IMG/VR virus record: IMGVR_UViG_3300025759_000705
Span: 1-23,679 of that record
Length of the DNA stretch: 23,679 nt
From: a virus
Strand: one strand, 5' to 3'
The notes under the pieces were generated by a model, which saw only the letters and a program-made list of their open reading frames with translations, searched no databases and was not told the DNA's origin. A program made the position numbers and the translations under genes. Of this stretch, positions 1,419 through 13,661 are shown one piece after another; positions within the stretch are counted from its first letter, which is position 1, and every line of letters starts with the position of its first letter.

Positions 1419-3488
1419 ATGCAAAGTGATTCAATTTCAGAAGCTCTTACTTATGTAGGAAAAGAGCCCGACATCAAAACATTACGATACGCCTATGACC
1501 AAACGGTTGTAGAACTAGAAGCATACTTCGACCTATGTAGGACAAGCTATGATGATAGACGTAATTGGTGGGCTGGCAAGTCCCGTGACCACAGAAAGCA
1601 CGGTGCTGATGCTTTTCCTTGGGAAGGTGCTGCTGATATGGAAGCACACACTATCGATGAAAGAATTACTCGTCTTGTATCTCTGTTTATGTCTAGCCTT
1701 AATCGTGCTAATGTAAGAGCTTATCCCGTAGAAAGCACTGACATCGCACGAAGCAAAGTTGTATCCAACTTCTTGAAGTGGATGGTATCCTCTGGATACA
1801 TTCCAAGATTCAAGAGAGAGATGGAACTCGGTGCTAATTATCTTCTTGAGAGAGGGTTGTTAATTACTTACGTAGGTTGGCACAGAGAGGATAGGAAGTT
1901 TTTACAAAAATTAGACCTTCGTCAGATAGCCGAAGTATCTCCAGAGATAGGCCAAGTCATTCAAGACGGTGATAACGATGGAGAGCTTGCAGCTTTACTT
2001 GAAGCATCTTTTCCGGGTGTTACTCCAAAGAGAGCTAAGAAAGCAATCAAAGATCTTCGCAAAAAAGGAGAAGCTGAATTACCTATAGTTCGCCGCCAAA
2101 TAGATGCCCCCGAAGTTAAGACACTTGCTCCCGATGGGGATTTTATGTTCCCTCCGTATGTGACCGATCCTCAGCGTGCACCGTATTGTTTTTGGAAGAC
2201 TTACTACACTGCTCAAGAGCTAGAGAACAAAGTGGTAACTGATGGATGGGATGCTGACTTTGTGGAAACAATGATAGATAAGTACAGAGGTGTCAATATT
2301 GATTCCATAGAAAGAGAACAAGAGGGTCGTAGAAGTACATCTCTTACTGACAACGCTTATGAAGCAGAGGAGTTAATTGAAATCGTTTACGGATACCAAA
2401 GATTAATCGACCAAGAGGATGGTGCTGAAGGAATTTACTGCACAGTTTTCCACAAGGAGTACGATGGAGGATACGCTAAATTTGAATTACTGAACGGATA
2501 TGAAGATTATCCTATTGTAGTGACTAAACTTTCTGAAGATAGTAAACGCCTTTATGACGTTCAAACTATTCCAGACATTCTTCGTGGTATACAGAATCAA
2601 GTAAAGGTAGAAAGGGATTCACGTATTGATAGAAACAGTCTAGCTACTCTACCTCCGATTCTGCACCCAGTGGGACAAGCTCCTACAGATTGGGGACCGG
2701 GAAGAATGATCCCTTACAGACGTAAAGGTGACTTGGACTTTGCTCCGACTCCACCTCCTCCAACTGGTTCTATTGAAATAGAAAAGACTATGGAGGCTCA
2801 AGCGGACAGACTATGTGGTTTGGATGAAACCTCTGCAATCAGTCAAGTACGAAAACAATTTTTAGTAGACAAGTTTTTACAGCACTCAGCCGAAGTTCTT
2901 AATATGGCCTACAAGTGCTTCCAAAGGTTTGGACCGGACTCAGTGTTCTTCAGAGTTACTGGTTCTCCCGACCCTATTGAGTTCAGTAAAGGAGACCCGA
3001 ACGAGAACTTTGATATAATGATTAACTATGATGTCCTCAACTCAGATCCTCAGACTCAAGAACAGAAGCTACAGCAGTTGGTTGCTCTTACGCAACTTGA
3101 TCGTAACGGTCGTATTGACATCAACTCTTTGCTTGATGCTGCTGCTTCTAGCATCGATCCGGTTCTTGCTGATAGGATTCTACAGCCTATTGAAGCTGCT
3201 CAAGAACAAGTAGTACGCCAAGTAACAGATGACTTATCGAAGATTTATTCTGGTATTGAAATGCCAGCACGTCCAAACGGTGCTCAAATTGCTCTTACTG
3301 TTATTCAACAGTATGCTTCTCAGCCAGATATTGCTGAAAGACTTCAAACAGATGAAGCCTTCGCAGCAAGAATTGAAAAGTACGCTGGGCAGTACACATT
3401 CCAAATGCAACAAATGCAAAACGCTCAGATCGGAAGAGTTGGAACACAACCAGCCCAAATGGGAGATATTCAAACTCAAGGAATATAA
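1419..3488 (+). CDS. Portal protein (head-tail connector)
   Basis: A 689-aa protein fitting a podovirus-type portal, the dodecameric ring at the capsid vertex through which DNA is packaged and ejected. An FPWEGAADME segment near residues 66-75, followed by a helical region (DERITRLVSLFMSSLNRANV), is typical of phage portals with a PWEGA-type N-terminus. A long middle region contains mixed alpha/beta wing and stem sequence. The C-terminal 100 residues are Gln/Ala-rich and helical (QFQMQQMQNAQIGR type), fitting a barrel or crown. Length and position after terminase agree. The ATG has no Shine-Dalgarno; the 27-base gap before it is very A/T-rich. Confidence 0.9.
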   Translation: MQSDSISEALTYVGKEPDIKTLRYAYDQTVVELEAYFDLCRTSYDDRRNWWAGKSRDHRKHGADAFPWEGAADMEAHTIDERITRLVSLFMSSLNRANVRAYPVESTDIARSKVVSNFLKWMVSSGYIPRFKREMELGANYLLERGLLITYVGWHREDRKFLQKLDLRQIAEVSPEIGQVIQDGDNDGELAALLEASFPGVTPKRAKKAIKDLRKKGEAELPIVRRQIDAPEVKTLAPDGDFMFPPYVTDPQRAPYCFWKTYYTAQELENKVVTDGWDADFVETMIDKYRGVNIDSIEREQEGRRSTSLTDNAYEAEELIEIVYGYQRLIDQEDGAEGIYCTVFHKEYDGGYAKFELLNGYEDYPIVVTKLSEDSKRLYDVQTIPDILRGIQNQVKVERDSRIDRNSLATLPPILHPVGQAPTDWGPGRMIPYRRKGDLDFAPTPPPPTGSIEIEKTMEAQADRLCGLDETSAISQVRKQFLVDKFLQHSAEVLNMAYKCFQRFGPDSVFFRVTGSPDPIEFSKGDPNENFDIMINYDVLNSDPQTQEQKLQQLVALTQLDRNGRIDINSLLDAAASSIDPVLADRILQPIEAAQEQVVRQVTDDLSKIYSGIEMPARPNGAQIALTVIQQYASQPDIAERLQTDEAFAARIEKYAGQYTFQMQQMQNAQIGRVGTQPAQMGDIQTQGI

Positions 3489-3492
3489 TACT

Positions 3493-4059
3493 ATGGCGGA
3501 TAATATGACCACAAGTCAGTACGCTGCACAGCGTGCTAAACCAAAATCATACGGAATGGATTTGTATAAAATCCTATCCTTAAATGAAGGAAAGAAATCT
3601 AGTGCTTATAAGGATTCTTTAGGCAATATGTCAATAGCGGTAGGGTTCAACCTAGAAGAGCCAACTAACATAAAGTACCTAGAGGAAAGACACGGTTTAA
3701 CCTATGATGATCTTGTCAACAAAGGTAAAACTCTGAATGAAAATCAAATCCGGGACTTATATAATTTTAATATAAAAAACGCCTTAACTGATGCTAAAGA
3801 ATTTGATCCTAAATTTAGTTCTAGACCAACTAATGCAAAGATTGCATTGTTGGACTTATCTTTTAACTTAGGTCGCAAAAAACTATTTACATTTAAGAAA
3901 ATGCGTAAAGCTCTTGCTGAAGACGATTACGATAAAGCGGCAGCCGAAATGAAGGATTCCAAATGGTACGAACAAGTAAAGACAAGAGGTCCTCGTATGG
4001 TTGGAGTAATGAAGGACCCAAATAATTTAACAAAATTATTAAATGAGCTTAGAAAGTGA
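3493..4059 (+). CDS. GH24 lysozyme (T4-lysozyme-like muramidase)
   Basis: Start chosen at ATG 3493, just after the portal stop at 3488 and with an AAGGAA upstream; the frame also runs open back into portal, but that part is shadow. The 188-aa product resembles T4 lysozyme, which cuts the MurNAc-GlcNAc bond of peptidoglycan. Catalytic Glu is E32 in LNEGKKSSAYKD and catalytic Asp is D41, the same nine-residue spacing as E11/D20 of T4 lysozyme. The position matching T4 Thr26 is S47 (GNMSIAVGF), a conservative change. The C-terminal LDLSFNLG and KWYEQVKTRGPRM segments match the fold's second lobe. No signal peptide or SAR segment is seen, so export would need a holin, or it could be a virion-associated muramidase. 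Its place between portal and scaffold is unusual for an endolysin. Confidence 0.85.
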   Translation: MADNMTTSQYAAQRAKPKSYGMDLYKILSLNEGKKSSAYKDSLGNMSIAVGFNLEEPTNIKYLEERHGLTYDDLVNKGKTLNENQIRDLYNFNIKNALTDAKEFDPKFSSRPTNAKIALLDLSFNLGRKKLFTFKKMRKALAEDDYDKAAAEMKDSKWYEQVKTRGPRMVGVMKDPNNLTKLLNELRK

Positions 4060-10067: not shown

Positions 10068-10331
10068 ATGAACGATTCAGAGGGAGAACCAATAGTAGGA
10101 TATTTAGTATTCAATGATTTTGATACTGCACTAGCTCGTGCTGATGCAGAGGGTTCTGCTTGTAACTTTGCTTACTTTCAAGGTACTGGAGCTACTAGAT
10201 ACAGAACTTACCCACAAGAATTATCTAATGGTAAGTGGGCTTTGAATATAGCTAAGTACTCAGCACTAACAGATGATGAAATTAGTTCATTGCAATCATC
10301 AGTAACATTTAAACCAGTAGAAGAAGAATAA
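10068..10331 (+). CDS. Hypothetical protein, 87 aa, after the lectin-like protein
   Basis: Two bases after the lectin-like gene and overlapping the next start (TAATG). The acidic product (VGYLVFNDFDTALARADAEG, then YRTYPQELSNGKWALNIAKY and a LTDDEISSL helix) looks like a small folded alpha/beta protein. A location directly after a fibre-like gene is typical for fibre assembly chaperones or capping proteins, which is a contextual guess. No family recognised. Confidence 0.62.
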   Translation: MNDSEGEPIVGYLVFNDFDTALARADAEGSACNFAYFQGTGATRYRTYPQELSNGKWALNIAKYSALTDDEISSLQSSVTFKPVEEE

Positions 10332-10492
10332 TGGAAGAGACATTACAAAGATTGGCAGTAGGCATATATGGCTTTATAGCTACAGAGATGCTTGTGGATG
10401 TGGATTTGATGCTGTCCATCTTGGGTAGAGTCGTGGTTATTTCTTTAACAATATTATCAATCATCAAGATGTGGAGGGACATTAAGAAATGA
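10331..10492 (+). CDS. Small membrane protein, 53 aa, in the lysis-like cluster
   Basis: Start codon overlaps the preceding stop (TAATG) and its TGA overlaps the next ATG (ATGA), so it is embedded in a coupled chain. The product has a hydrophobic stretch from about residue 8 to 45 (RVVVISLTILSIIKMW at its end) with two acidic residues in the middle (LVDVDLML), giving one or two membrane passes, and a basic C-terminal WRDIKK. Size, topology and position directly before a 3TM holin candidate fit a holin partner or antiholin. The role is inference. Confidence 0.65.
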   Translation: MEETLQRLAVGIYGFIATEMLVDVDLMLSILGRVVVISLTILSIIKMWRDIKK

Positions 10493-10896
10493 CAACAGAA
10501 CTATTAGCAATGTTAGGAGGCGGATTCTCTGGATTCGTATTTAAATTAATTGGAACTATGGTGCAGAATCAAGCAGCCATTACTGAAGGACTTATCAAAA
10601 AGCAACAAGCATCTGACGATAGTGCAGATAGAGCCGCAGCTAGAGTGGATGCCTTCGGTGCTTGGACACGCCGGATTATTGTACTTACAGTCCTATTTGG
10701 GGTAATCATCGCACCGTTCATCTTAGCACATAGCGAAGAGGGAGTAACGGTAGCAAGTGAATACAGTAAATGGTTCGGTTTCGCAAAAGGAACAGCGTAC
10801 CAAACTCTTCACGGTTACATAATTTTACCCGAAATTAAAACAGCGGTTATCAGTATCATTTCTTTCTACTTCGGAAGTGCCGCAGTAAGCAAGTAA
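10489..10896 (+). CDS. Holin candidate, 3TM type, 135 aa
   Basis: Three hydrophobic segments are seen: about 6-22 (LAMLGGGFSGFVFKLIG), 63-80 (IIVLTVLFGVIIAPFILA) and 115-132 (EIKTAVISIISFYFGSAA). A polar linker rich in Asp/Arg/Ala (SDDSADRAAARVDAF) ends in AWTRR before the second segment, the arrangement of 3TM phage holins, which form inner-membrane holes releasing endolysin. The start is coupled to the upstream gene by ATGA. A cytoplasmic GH24 lysozyme without export signal is encoded elsewhere in the window and would need such a holin. Confidence 0.68.
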   Translation: MTTELLAMLGGGFSGFVFKLIGTMVQNQAAITEGLIKKQQASDDSADRAAARVDAFGAWTRRIIVLTVLFGVIIAPFILAHSEEGVTVASEYSKWFGFAKGTAYQTLHGYIILPEIKTAVISIISFYFGSAAVSK

Positions 10897-10900
10897 TGAA

Positions 10901-11827
10901 ATGGATAAGAAATCTGCTAAGAAACTTCTTCTTGAGCATAAGGATGCACTTGAGACTCTTCTCAAATCAGAAGGTTTGGCAGATGTTAAAGCAGAGGTTG
11001 AGAGCAACCTTGAGCAAGCTAAAGAAGCTAGTAAAAAGGTAGGGAAGGACTTAGCTAAAGAAGCCGGAAAAGAAGTAGCCAAGGATCAAGCAAAGCAAAC
11101 AGTTGTCCAAAGGGCAGTAGAACAAGTACAAAATGTAGCCGCTCCGATAATAGAAAAGGTTACGACATTAGGAACAGCTGGGACGGTAGCGATGGGAACA
11201 GCGGCAGTGACTCAAGTAGAGTTAGCTACGGATCAGACCGAAACATTAGTAGCTCTAGTAGCTAATGATGTCGTGGAGCAAAGGATTGAAGCTCCGATGT
11301 TTATCGATGTCTTTGTAGACTTCGAGGCAGTCAATGACTGGGGTCAAGAAGTTATGGCTGAGAAGGTGGAGGAGGCACAGACCTTCGCTTCCGAGGTGTC
11401 CGAACAGATACAGATACAGTCCGAAACTTCCTCTGAGCCGGATCCCAAACCTCAACCCGTTGTCGCTTCCGATACTGTTGAGGAAAAGTCTTCCGATGAG
11501 AAATCTGAGCCAACCGATAAATCGTTAGAATCGGAAAAACAACAAAAGCAAGAAACCAAAGTAGAGAAGTCATCTGAGGAAAAAGAAGAAGTTAAAGAAG
11601 ATAGTCCAAAAGAAGATAAAGAAGATAAGCCAGTAAAAGGCCAAGAACCCAAAACTGAAGATAAGAAACAATCTGAACAAAAGGTAGAAAAGACTCCATC
11701 AGAAGAGATTAAAGAGGAAGTAAAGGAAGAAGTCAAGCAAGATCCGCCAAAAGTTGAAACCCCTACGATTGAAGAAATGGACCCAATAAAACCACACGAT
11801 TTAGTAGAACCTAGCCCAATAATATAA
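10901..11827 (+). CDS. K/E/P-rich protein with hydrophobic segment, 308 aa, unknown
   Basis: N-terminal 75 residues are Lys/Ala/Glu-rich and helical (DLAKEAGKEVAKDQAKQTVV). A weakly hydrophobic stretch follows (TTLGTAGTVAMGTAAVTQVE, about 88-107) and then a short folded-looking part (APMFIDVFVDFEAVNDW). From about residue 175 to the end the protein is a low-complexity Lys/Glu/Ser/Pro tail. The design, a possible membrane segment plus a long extended charged linker, recalls envelope-spanning proteins such as TonB or spanins, but no lipobox or diagnostic spanin motif is seen. The ATG at 10901 follows TAATGAA; another ATG at 10896 is in a different, short frame. The next gene starts in its stop (TAATG). 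Function unknown. Confidence 0.68.
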   Translation: MDKKSAKKLLLEHKDALETLLKSEGLADVKAEVESNLEQAKEASKKVGKDLAKEAGKEVAKDQAKQTVVQRAVEQVQNVAAPIIEKVTTLGTAGTVAMGTAAVTQVELATDQTETLVALVANDVVEQRIEAPMFIDVFVDFEAVNDWGQEVMAEKVEEAQTFASEVSEQIQIQSETSSEPDPKPQPVVASDTVEEKSSDEKSEPTDKSLESEKQQKQETKVEKSSEEKEEVKEDSPKEDKEDKPVKGQEPKTEDKKQSEQKVEKTPSEEIKEEVKEEVKQDPPKVETPTIEEMDPIKPHDLVEPSPII

Positions 11828-11985
11828 TGGAATTTTTTGAACACATATTTGGAAACTACAAAGACAACCTCACAGCAATGGGGCTTGCCTACATTGGTAT
11901 ACTATCAATAGTGGCAATGTTTTTGCCCAAGAACAACATCCTTAACAAAATCCTCAACGAAATAAAATCCTTATTTAAAAAATGA
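11827..11985 (+). CDS. Single-TM small protein, 52 aa
   Basis: Start overlaps the preceding stop (TAATG) and its TGA overlaps the next ATG (ATGA). A single transmembrane helix (LAYIGILSIVAMFLP, about 20-34) follows a mixed N-terminus (MEFFEHIFGNYKD), and the C-terminus is a basic amphipathic helix (ILNKILNEIKSLFKK). The layout is that of a small membrane-anchored protein, possibly another holin or antiholin or a partner of the adjacent PEP-CTERM-like protein. No family is recognised. Confidence 0.65.
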   Translation: MEFFEHIFGNYKDNLTAMGLAYIGILSIVAMFLPKNNILNKILNEIKSLFKK

Positions 11986-12281
11986 GCCACGAGTCCCAAA
12001 CTAGAGATTTACCAATAACTTATATTGAAACTGATTATGACTACGATTCTAATTATAGTTTCGATAAAGAAAATGGATTTTTTTACATTGAACCAATCCC
12101 GGAGTTTATTAGACAAGAGTTTGAAGGATTGCACTACAAAGGAGTAGATTACTCTTGGGACGAGATAAATTACAGAATGGGAGTAGAGTACACACCGTCT
12201 GTACCAGAGCCTTCTTCAGTCGGACTCGTGATGGGAACAATTTTTACAGCATTTGTGCTGATTAAAACATTAACAAAATAA
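11982..12281 (+). CDS. PEP-CTERM-like small protein, 99 aa
   Basis: The last 27 residues look like a PEP-CTERM sorting signal: Val-Pro-Glu-Pro-Ser-Ser at 74-79, a hydrophobic helix (VGLVMGTIFTAFVLI, 80-94) and a short basic end (KTLTK). In bacteria this tripartite tail is recognised by exosortase, which cleaves near PEP and anchors or releases the protein at the cell surface. The remaining 70 residues are acidic and Tyr-rich (IETDYDYDSNYSF; GVDYSWDEINYRMGVEY). No N-terminal Sec signal peptide is visible, unlike ordinary exosortase substrates. Start is coupled by ATGA to the 52-aa membrane protein. A plain C-terminal tail anchor with a chance PEP triplet is the main alternative. Confidence 0.65.
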   Translation: MSHESQTRDLPITYIETDYDYDSNYSFDKENGFFYIEPIPEFIRQEFEGLHYKGVDYSWDEINYRMGVEYTPSVPEPSSVGLVMGTIFTAFVLIKTLTK

Positions 12282-12294
12282 CAAAGGAAATATT

Positions 12295-12372
12295 ATGCCC
12301 GGACATTATGGAAAAGGTAGCTGCGGAGAGAAAGTCTCTGGTGGCAAAAAAGGTAAAGGAATGCGTAAGTAA
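12295..12372 (+). CDS. Very small basic Gly/Lys-rich protein, 25 aa
   Basis: An ATG preceded by AAAGGAA opens a 25-codon frame, MPGHYGKGSCGEK then a Gly/Lys-rich end, whose TAA overlaps the next ATG. Short 'MPG..YGKK' proteins of this style occur in aquatic phage genomes next to other small basic genes. Support comes from the ribosome binding site, the overlap and the neighbours; length alone would not justify it. Confidence 0.5.
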   Translation: MPGHYGKGSCGEKVSGGKKGKGMRK

Positions 12373-12500
12373 TGGCTATTACTTCAATAGTATTCTTTGG
12401 TAAAAAGGACAAGAAAGCGTGTTGCCCAGCTTGTGCCGCCGAAATGGAGGCACAGCAAGGCAGACGTAAACAACCTAATTATAAGCGGAGGAAAGTGTAA
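12372..12500 (+). CDS. Small Cys-rich basic protein, 42 aa
   Basis: Starts in the stop of the 25-aa gene and ends in the start of the next (TAATG at both ends). The product has an N-terminal hydrophobic piece (MAITSIVFFG), a cluster ACCPACAAE that could be half of a zinc knuckle (three Cys within four residues), and a basic tail (GRRKQPNYKRRKV). Too small for confident assignment; a metal- or nucleic-acid-binding peptide is possible. Confidence 0.55.
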   Translation: MAITSIVFFGKKDKKACCPACAAEMEAQQGRRKQPNYKRRKV

Positions 12501-12619
12501 TGCCCCTAGAAAAATATAGCGAAAAGCAAAAGAAGTTAGCTAGGTTAGCAATTCCTAGAGACAAGATAACAGCAGCAGACTTGGAGGTACTTCGTGGCGG
12601 AAAAAAGAAAAGGAAATAA
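12500..12619 (+). CDS. Small basic protein, 39 aa
   Basis: Start overlaps the upstream stop (TAATG). The product is helical and basic (YSEKQKKLARLAIPRDKITA) with a terminal GGKKKRK. The sequence AIPRDKITAADLEVLR looks like one short folded hairpin, similar to conserved small phage proteins carrying an 'R..IT..D...LR' motif. Its 3' end overlaps the next gene by 26 bases in another frame. Confidence 0.55.
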   Translation: MPLEKYSEKQKKLARLAIPRDKITAADLEVLRGGKKKRK

Positions 12620-12755
12620 AATCTGCCCAGCTGGGATAGCTTGGGCTCGTAGGACTTTTGACAAGTACCCATCCGCTTATGCGAATATGGCTGCTTCAAA
12701 GTACTGCAAGGACCCGAACTATGCTAAAGGTGCTAAGAAGAGAAAGAAGAAATAA
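12594..12755 (+). CDS. Small Cys/Lys-rich phage protein with YPSAYAN motif, 53 aa (GTG start)
   Basis: GTG start with GGAGG at 12583-12587, seven bases upstream, inside the previous gene. The protein contains CPAGIAWARRTFDKYPSAYA followed by NMAASKYC: a helix bracketed by Cys 11 and Cys 38, then a poly-basic tail (KGAKKRKKK). I recognise this KYPSAYAN..A...C pattern from small conserved proteins of unknown function in marine and aquatic phages. A virion-internal DNA-binding role is possible from its charge. The stop overlaps the next ATG (TAATG). Confidence 0.7.
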   Translation: MAEKRKGNKICPAGIAWARRTFDKYPSAYANMAASKYCKDPNYAKGAKKRKKK

Positions 12756-13000
12756 TGGGTGAGCTTAAAAAGTGGAGAGAGCAAAAGTGGGTTCGCATCG
12801 GGGTTGATGGCGAGATTAAAGGACCTTGCGGTACTTCAAAGAACAAGAAACGCCCAGACAGATGCCTTCCATTGGCTAAAGCTAGAAGTTTATCGAAAGC
12901 TGAAAGAGCCGCCACAGCTAGAAAGAAAAAAGCTGGAGGAGCAAAAGGAAAACAATTTGTACCGAATACGCCAAAGGCAAGAGTAAGAACTAAAAAGTAA
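12755..13000 (+). CDS. Small basic phage protein with CG..RPDRCLP motif, 81 aa
   Basis: Starts in the stop of the previous gene. The motif series WVRIGVDGEIKGPCG (Cys 25), then RPDRCLPLAKARSLSKAERA (Cys 37) and ARKKKAGG is a conserved pattern in small phage proteins of unknown function: a Trp-Val strand, two Cys 12 residues apart, and a Ser-rich turn before a basic helix. Net charge is strongly positive, favouring nucleic-acid contact. Another frame across the same bases gives a longer-looking but poorly motivated peptide and was not chosen. Confidence 0.72.
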   Translation: MGELKKWREQKWVRIGVDGEIKGPCGTSKNKKRPDRCLPLAKARSLSKAERAATARKKKAGGAKGKQFVPNTPKARVRTKK

Positions 13001-13416
13001 TGATTAAAGTAATAAGAAACCCAGATGGAAGCATTAGAGCTGCTTACAGTGTAGACAGCCTAGGCAATAGAGTTTACGGTTCAGACCCTACTCCATTGCC
13101 AGTGCTTGGTTCTATGCCTACAATGCCTAAAGCTCCATCTCCTTCAATCAATAGTATTACGGATTCTATGCTAGGTGGAATGGGAAAGCCTTCCGTAGAC
13201 CCATTCACTGGATCAAACAAACCTAGAACATTTGATGATTTTAAAAATTTCATAGCACTCAATAAGAAAAATTTTGTTCGAGATTTTGGTAAAAAAGAGG
13301 GTATGCAAAGATTCAATGAAGTTTTAAACCAAGTACAAGAAGGTCTTTTTGATAAACTTACTGAAGAAGAGGCTAAGTACGTAGACGATTTAAAAAATAA
13401 TAGAGTGAATTTATAA
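13000..13416 (+). CDS. Hypothetical protein, 138 aa
   Basis: Coupled at both ends by TAATG overlaps. The N-terminus (VIRNPDGSIRAAYSVDSLGN) is a beta hairpin-like stretch, followed by a Pro/Met-rich linker (PVLGSMPTMPKAPSPS) and a helical C-terminal domain (FKNFIALNKKNFVRDFGKKE; EEEAKYVDDLKNN). It is neutral to mildly basic, unlike its Cys-rich neighbours. No family recognised; position suggests a virion-associated or assembly protein. Confidence 0.66.
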   Translation: MIKVIRNPDGSIRAAYSVDSLGNRVYGSDPTPLPVLGSMPTMPKAPSPSINSITDSMLGGMGKPSVDPFTGSNKPRTFDDFKNFIALNKKNFVRDFGKKEGMQRFNEVLNQVQEGLFDKLTEEEAKYVDDLKNNRVNL

Positions 13417-13661
13417 TGGCTATCGACAAAAAGAAGATGAAGTGCAATGTACCTCGCCGAGATGTTCAAGGCGGCAAGAAGTTCGTTGTAAAGGCTTGTG
13501 AAGGTGGTAAAGAAAAGATCATTCGATTCGGAGATGCGAATATGAAGATCAAAAAGAATATACCAGCTCGTAAGAAGAGCTATTGTGCTCGTAGTGCTGG
13601 AATCAAAGGAAAGGGAAAGATGTCAGCTAACTATTGGTCAAGGAGAGCTTGGGGTTGCTAG
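13416..13661 (+). CDS. Small Cys/Lys-rich phage protein ending YWSRRAW.C, 81 aa
   Basis: Start overlaps the upstream stop; its TAG directly abuts the next ATG. The product combines an N-terminal Cys-containing beta part (KKFVVKACEGGKEKIIRFGD) and the motif KKSYCARSAGIKG...YWSRRAWGC at the C-terminus (Cys 57 and Cys 81). The 'RFGD..M.IKK....KKSYCARS' pattern is a known conserved small-protein type in aquatic phages, without an assigned function that I know. High Lys/Arg content suggests DNA or RNA binding inside the virion or during assembly. Confidence 0.74.
   Translation: MAIDKKKMKCNVPRRDVQGGKKFVVKACEGGKEKIIRFGDANMKIKKNIPARKKSYCARSAGIKGKGKMSANYWSRRAWGC

Follow-up and report, generated by a model that had tools for sequence, protein, structure and literature searches.

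A phage protein with a PEP-CTERM-like tail, encoded in a three-gene cassette, as a candidate cargo of the host exosortase

The question raised by this locus was whether a phage may send a protein of its own through the exosortase sorting machinery of its host. To our knowledge, almost everything learned so far about exosortase sorting comes from genomes, and the route and purpose of its cargo are poorly understood. The window, i.e., the whole stretch of 23,679 nucleotides analyzed here (IMG/VR record IMGVR_UViG_3300025759_000705), encodes a 99-aa protein that an earlier note, made from the sequence alone, had described as carrying a PEP-CTERM-like sorting signal. No report of phage-encoded PEP-CTERM proteins was found among the open-access papers searched, which is no proof of absence. 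Tails of this class are established; we know of no precedent for the phage cassette, for the exchange of ectodomains, or for a type lacking the signal peptide.

The 99-aa reading frame was borne out in its coordinates, frame, and length, with the ATG at 11982 and the stop codon ending at 12281 (Table 1). The ATG overlaps the TGA of the preceding gene for a 52-aa protein with one helix (junction AAAAAATGAG), and the coupling to a one-TM protein that had been claimed was thus seen as an ATG/stop overlap. Judged by these overlapping codons, translational coupling of the two genes is very probable. A programmed −1 frameshift that would join the 52-aa protein and the PEP-tailed protein was considered and rejected: the junction reads AAAAAATGAG or AAGAAATGAG, a slip cannot re-pair in the second form, and the fusion would also place the PEP on the wrong side.

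Table 1. Genes of the three-gene cassette, its two upstream neighbors, and the sorting-tail module in the window
Feature	Position	Strand	Description
53-aa protein	10331..10492	+	Two helix-like stretches; holin-like by layout only; cassette neighbor
135-aa protein	10489..10896	+	Three helix-like stretches (phrog_38283, function not annotated); cassette neighbor, not member
First cassette gene, acidic protein	10901..11827	+	308 aa, net charge −31; Gly/Ala/Thr-rich weakly hydrophobic segment, K/E/P/S-rich arm ending in KPH motif
Second cassette gene, one-helix protein	11827..11985	+	52 aa; one hydrophobic helix (aa 15–33), acidic N-side, basic amphipathic C-side
Third cassette gene, PEP-tailed protein	11982..12281	+	99 aa; acidic ectodomain (aa 1–73), V74-P75-E76-P77, hydrophobic helix (about aa 80–94), basic tip K95..K99
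Sorting-tail module	12201..12278	+	aa 74–99; V-P-E-P, helix, and tip; P75/E76 invariant in 68 distinct homologues

The three-part C-terminal layout described earlier was present (V74-PEP-SSVGLVMGTIFTAFVLIKTLTK99), with the helix at about aa 80–98 (hydropathy 1.83) and a tip (IKTLTK) weaker than the usual RRR cluster of PEP-CTERM proteins. The profile search that the earlier note had proposed gave a divided outcome: the window protein stayed below the cut-offs of both curated models (TIGR02595, 15.3 bits against 16; PF07589, 13.0 bits against 20.7), and the homologue L022 passed both (see below). The reported lack of an N-terminal signal peptide was confirmed, as judged by hydropathy only, by the absence of a hydrophobic N-terminal stretch in this type of protein. 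Because both the curated cut-offs and the signal peptide were missed, the window protein was not filed as a regular PEP-CTERM member; by its sequence, it is probably a phage variant that works like one. AlphaFold2 modelled the 99-aa protein with a mean pLDDT of 74 and a pTM of 0.42, and a Foldseek search of the predicted fold against the PDB gave nothing below an E-value of 1. Taken alone, the motif match in the window protein is weak, and it was judged through its relatives instead.

Homologues of the 99-aa protein without a signal peptide are called here the window type; an unrelated signal-sequence protein found in the same gene slot is called the sister type. A close search for homologues yielded two loci. 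The 135-aa neighbor used as a bait in IMG/VR recovered 80 loci, iterated profile searches in these gave 63 loci with 44 distinct homologues, and further scans of IMG/VR raised the total to 68 distinct complete ones. The search of a viral database for homologues keeping the tail was thus positive: Pro-Glu (P75, E76) was found in 68/68 and the full Pro-Glu-Pro in 61/68 (90%), with S, Q, A, or F as the third residue in the other seven. Because of this conservation, the motif is more than a chance match. The earlier note had held that homologues keeping the helix but not Pro-Glu-Pro would speak against a sorting signal. The third Pro is indeed lost in 7/68 proteins of the window type and in 23/33 of the sister type, but no homologue without Pro-Glu was found among the 68. 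Five ectodomain residues (G49, Y57, W59, E61, and R65) are also invariant in 68/68; no invariant position falls within the tail helix, which itself varies. None of the 68 has a signal peptide. Among the 44 distinct homologues of the bait loci, the maximal hydropathy over 15 residues before the motif was 1.06, the net charge before the motif ranged from −7 to −15, and that of the tip from +1 to +4. Five homologues (L334, L332, L342, L349, and L353) continue for 28–40 residues beyond the helix with a basic, amphipathic extension, which is unusual for PEP-CTERM proteins.

The tails were compared with cellular ones in three independent ways. L022, a member of the window-type family from the same gene place, scored above both cut-offs (TIGR02595, 21.4 against 16; PF07589, 21.8 against 20.7). 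An HMM built only from 24 Opitutales PEP-CTERM tails and searched against 17,168 ORFs of the phage loci placed members of the window-type family at ranks 1–49, the first outsider having an E-value of 3.7. In the reverse direction, the phage-family profile reached cellular PEP-CTERM proteins via their tails in 10/384 genomes of the class of an Opitutae MAG (G002). For the family, these checks answer the question in the affirmative: by sequence, the tail is of the PEP-CTERM kind. The sorting-signal reading is therefore upheld at the level of the family, by the L022 scores and by unrelated signal-sequence ectodomains that carry the same kind of tail. At the residue level, the tails of L022, L021, L077, L413, and L418 match tails of small-genome Opitutales at 16–17/23 residues, whereas the best of 20,000 shuffles per tail reached 13–15/23. 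The window's own tail matches cellular tails at 10/23 residues only (P about 0.006).

The sister type (33 distinct cases in the window's phage group, about 200 aa) has an N-terminal signal sequence and a beta-rich domain unrelated to the window-type ectodomain. Pro-Glu is invariant in its tails as well, and the third residue is Pro in only 10/33. AlphaFold2 predicted a beta-sandwich for the sister ectodomain (mean pLDDT 75), with the C-terminal beta-domain of Tk-SP as its best structural match (Z 9.6, rmsd 2.6, 102 residues); since several unrelated beta-sandwiches score close behind, the model indicates a general beta-sandwich arrangement only. Over the final 57 nt, two sister-type genes closely match the window-type tail in L048 (L049, 93% identity; L032, 88%), whereas over the preceding 60 nt the identity is 30–32%. 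At the sequence level, this shows that the tail is kept under two unrelated N-terminal domains and that the same helix and tip serve a signal-sequence protein; part of the pattern could come from recombination in conserved flanks.

The side of the membrane on which the motif would lie was assessed from the same material. The published PEP-CTERM model is N-out/C-in, with the motif at the periplasmic face, and most cellular PEP-CTERM proteins have a signal peptide (PMC1569441). The earlier note had suggested that the PEP triplet may end up on the cytoplasmic side. This is not favored: we infer N-out/C-in because a strongly acidic stretch precedes the helix and a basic tip follows it, because the five long C-terminal extensions are basic, and because the tail stands behind a signal-sequence ectodomain in L049/L032. 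The cytoplasmic arrangement would make the protein a tail-anchored one, with its acidic domain inside, its helix N-in, and a coincidental PEP facing the cytoplasm. The missing signal peptide would fit such a protein, as would the helix at the extreme C-terminus, a position that by general rules favors post-translational insertion (PMC7616256). A basic tip outside and an acidic domain inside would, however, run against the positive-inside rule in all 44 sequences, the L049/L032 tails would be at odds with it, and the invariance of Pro-Glu would lack a reason; we regard a tail-anchored cytoplasmic protein as very improbable. Within the N-out reading, the least secure step is how the acidic domain would be exported with no signal peptide. 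Insertases can move short N-tails and favor short translocated tails (PMC7616256), for which about 75 residues before a C-terminal helix are long. N-out insertion is not trivial, because synthesis of the entire 75-aa domain is complete before the C-terminal helix has emerged.

The PEP-tailed gene is the third of a cassette found at 79 loci in the order acidic protein (about 240–310 aa), one-helix protein (52–56 aa), and PEP-tailed protein, with genes that overlap or abut; L353 has two additional small membrane genes separating the second from the third. Partial cassettes occur only where a contig starts or ends nearby, and 26 loci with the 135-aa neighbor have none of the three genes. In most loci the cassette follows the 135-aa gene, in some (e.g., L041, L047, and L061) it precedes that gene, and in L054 and L056 it is found about 7 kb upstream; it is thus seen at three places in the genome, each time as a block, and close relatives have no copy of it. 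Among these is the closest named relative, phage C75C1 (portal 73% identical), which is without it. As a working model from gene order, the three genes would form a mobile envelope cassette. The acidic protein is possibly a tether across the periplasm, a role and topology that we infer only; its conserved KPH motif is near the C-terminus and, with the K/E/P/S-rich arm, is common to the T4-like cassette described below.

The cassette also bears on the possibility that the tail is a mere membrane anchor whose Pro-Glu contacts the 52-aa partner or the acidic protein in a phage envelope complex (e.g., for lysis or exclusion), with no exosortase involved. Such a complex would agree with the three genes standing together in the 79 loci, with partial sets only near contig starts or ends, with the drift of the third Pro in both types (to M, L, V, S, A, Q, or F), and with the longer C-terminal extensions tolerated in five homologues. 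It leaves unexplained the near-copies of Opitutales tails (16–17/23), the retrieval of the family by a model made of cellular tails, and the scores of L022 above both curated models. We consider an anchor of this kind unlikely, yet worth keeping in mind.

A lysis/membrane cluster, in which the gene had been placed, was found in part: two small multi-helix proteins are encoded before the cassette (10331–10896), but there was no holin family match, and the lysozyme-like gene is about 7 kb upstream. The latter (3229–4059; PF00959, 27.6 bits) follows a portal-like gene, distant from the membrane genes, and its product could be virion-associated rather than an endolysin. The cassette is followed by a run of very small Lys/Arg-rich genes, none assigned to a family, that are conserved in relatives (12294–13660; e.g., 12594–12755, 12755–13000, and 13416–13661). 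Two-component and unimolecular spanins (PMC6139136) are likewise small phage envelope proteins beside membrane genes, and the acidic protein could be an inner-membrane protein with a long periplasmic arm. The sister type resembles a unimolecular spanin in its signal sequence and C-terminal helix but is missing the lipobox, and the cassette differs from spanins in being missing from close relatives such as C75C1. A simple scan of all frames of the window, which is part of a genome, gave no lipobox after a signal-like stretch. A spanin-like role of the cassette is no more than conceivable.

Related proteins were also found in other phages. A scan of IMG/VR with the pattern V-P-E-P-[ST]-T-Y-A-L returned L022 and six contigs (L407, L413, L414, L415, L411, and L418) with homologues of the signal-sequence type, the complete ones of which start with MYKWLGLSLLLATPAFA and end with VPEPSTYALILGWLLFLYVATKRRTD or a near relative. 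L407 encodes a T4-type gp32 (PF08804, 142 bits) that is 54% identical to gp32 of phage C48C1. The sister-type protein is homologous to the T4-like version (E-value 1e-34), in which the signal peptide is clear and the PEP-CTERM tail (VPEPSTYALILGWLLFLYVATKRRTD) canonical. The rest of the cassette is homologous as well: in L413/L414, the one-helix gene matches the window's 52-aa gene (hhalign probability 97.6, E-value 5e-12), and the acidic gene matches the window's acidic gene (E-value 2e-5). Among T4-like or unassigned contigs, TIGR02595 scores (cut-off 16) were 16.0 for L414, 16.4 for L418, and 21.9 for L404. On sequence grounds, L022 and the T4-like proteins appear close to regular PEP-CTERM members. 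The T4-like cassettes (L413:766-3276, L414:2080-5844, and L407:10426-12246) add a one-helix gene of 45–63 aa and a 384-aa signal-peptide protein, beta-barrel-like, after the PEP-CTERM protein. In L407, this barrel-like protein matches PF10082 at 15.4 bits, below the cut-off of 23.7. It had no match in 177 genomes of the Opitutae order, a search that had no positive control and says little. No real match to the PEP proteins, the barrel-like protein, or L022 was found in the named phage collection.

The earlier note had also mentioned a decoy or inhibitor, a short protein that would occupy the host exosortase and halt the sorting of surface proteins during infection. The very short ectodomain, the late-gene neighborhood, and the imperfect third residue in part of the family could be read in this way. 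A pure decoy, however, needs no conserved ectodomain, and five ectodomain residues are invariant here; the sister type carries what is predicted to be a whole folded exported domain, and the T4-like version is fully canonical in layout. We consider a decoy improbable.

The reading we prefer, with a probability of about 0.52, is that the 99-aa protein is a phage-encoded cargo with an exosortase-type tail, the third gene product of a mobile envelope cassette, which is exported N-out and sorted by the host exosortase. The sub-threshold scores of the window protein, the 10/23 match of its own tail, and the loose third Pro count against it, as do the missing signal peptide, the demands of N-out insertion, and the long C-terminal extensions of five homologues. 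The acidic N-terminal domain would cross the inner membrane. In the sister type, this would use Sec and a signal sequence; in the window type, which has none, the C-terminal helix and basic tip would drive N-tail translocation. The helix would hold the protein N-out/C-in with Pro-Glu(-Pro) at the periplasmic face, where the host exosortase would recognize the motif, cleave there, and hand the small domain on to the surface or the outer envelope. Once displayed, the domain would alter the infected cell's envelope at a late stage, so that further adsorption is blocked or release is aided. A change of the envelope is the most likely purpose, and both exclusion of other phages and aid in release are possible; the retention of the tail under exchangeable ectodomains inclines us to surface display. 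A broader version, which we hold only tentatively, is that two or more lineages of marine phages (T4-like phages and the window's group, whose capsid protein is SU10-like) have the mobile cassette in common, that its cargo is exosortase-sorted, and that the window type is exported by its tail alone.

Compared with the PEP-CTERM domain (TIGR02595, PF07589), the phage tails share the order of motif, helix, and basic tip at the C-terminus, with Pro-Glu invariant in the window family, and some are nearly identical to Opitutales tails. The window type differs in being phage-encoded, without a signal peptide, below the cut-offs, not strict in the third Pro, and part of a fixed three-gene cassette. 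Phages of Gram-positive bacteria encode LPXTG/sortase substrates. These resemble the proposed cargo as phage proteins using a C-terminal sorting pathway of the host and differ in motif, enzyme, and envelope type.

As judged from the sequences, a group of sea-water phages may thus send its own protein through the host's sorting machinery. If true, phages exploit a surface-sorting pathway of the host during infection, and the swapped ectodomains on a conserved tail provide a natural set of small substrates for probing exosortase recognition, which would depend on Pro-Glu more than on the third Pro. The tail would also offer a way, from genome sequence, to connect uncultured marine phages with hosts that carry exosortase.

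The earlier note had held that the motif, if real, narrows the host to an exosortase carrier. Relatives of the capsid gene were co-binned in two MAGs, with one contig in the Opitutae MAG and one in a Rickettsiales MAG. The former has two exosortases and 14 PEP-CTERM matches; in the latter, no exosortase was found. Host assignment from the capsid protein was rejected as uninformative, since its family occurs as often in the Opitutae order (8/373 genomes) as in the class of the Rickettsiales MAG (9/357). Any narrowing of the host is only indirect: the Opitutae MAG and the tail-matching small Opitutales have exosortase, and none was found in the Rickettsiales MAG. The exosortase family occurs in 37/52 genomes of the order of the Opitutae MAG and in 7/7 small Opitutales genomes with the best-matching tails. 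CRISPR-like and other DNA matches in 346 genomes were weak (37–74 nt) apart from the co-binned contig, no repeat array was present in the two loci inspected, and no tRNAs for host matching occurred in the window or in 32 loci. Phages C75C1 and C48C1 have no host in their records, and no paper on them was found. By these sequence comparisons, small marine Opitutales are the best host candidates, no more. The G+C content at the loci of three small genomes was 35–39% in two and 41% in the third, and that of the window was 39.6%.

A further PEP-CTERM tail was observed in L404 (5273–5614, minus strand), and also in L405, L408, L409, and L417, on an unrelated 114-aa protein with a signal peptide and an Asp-rich middle (21.9 bits, cut-off 16). 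These contigs of 30–73 kb, which may be of viral or host origin, also carry glycosyltransferase and tyrosinase-like genes.
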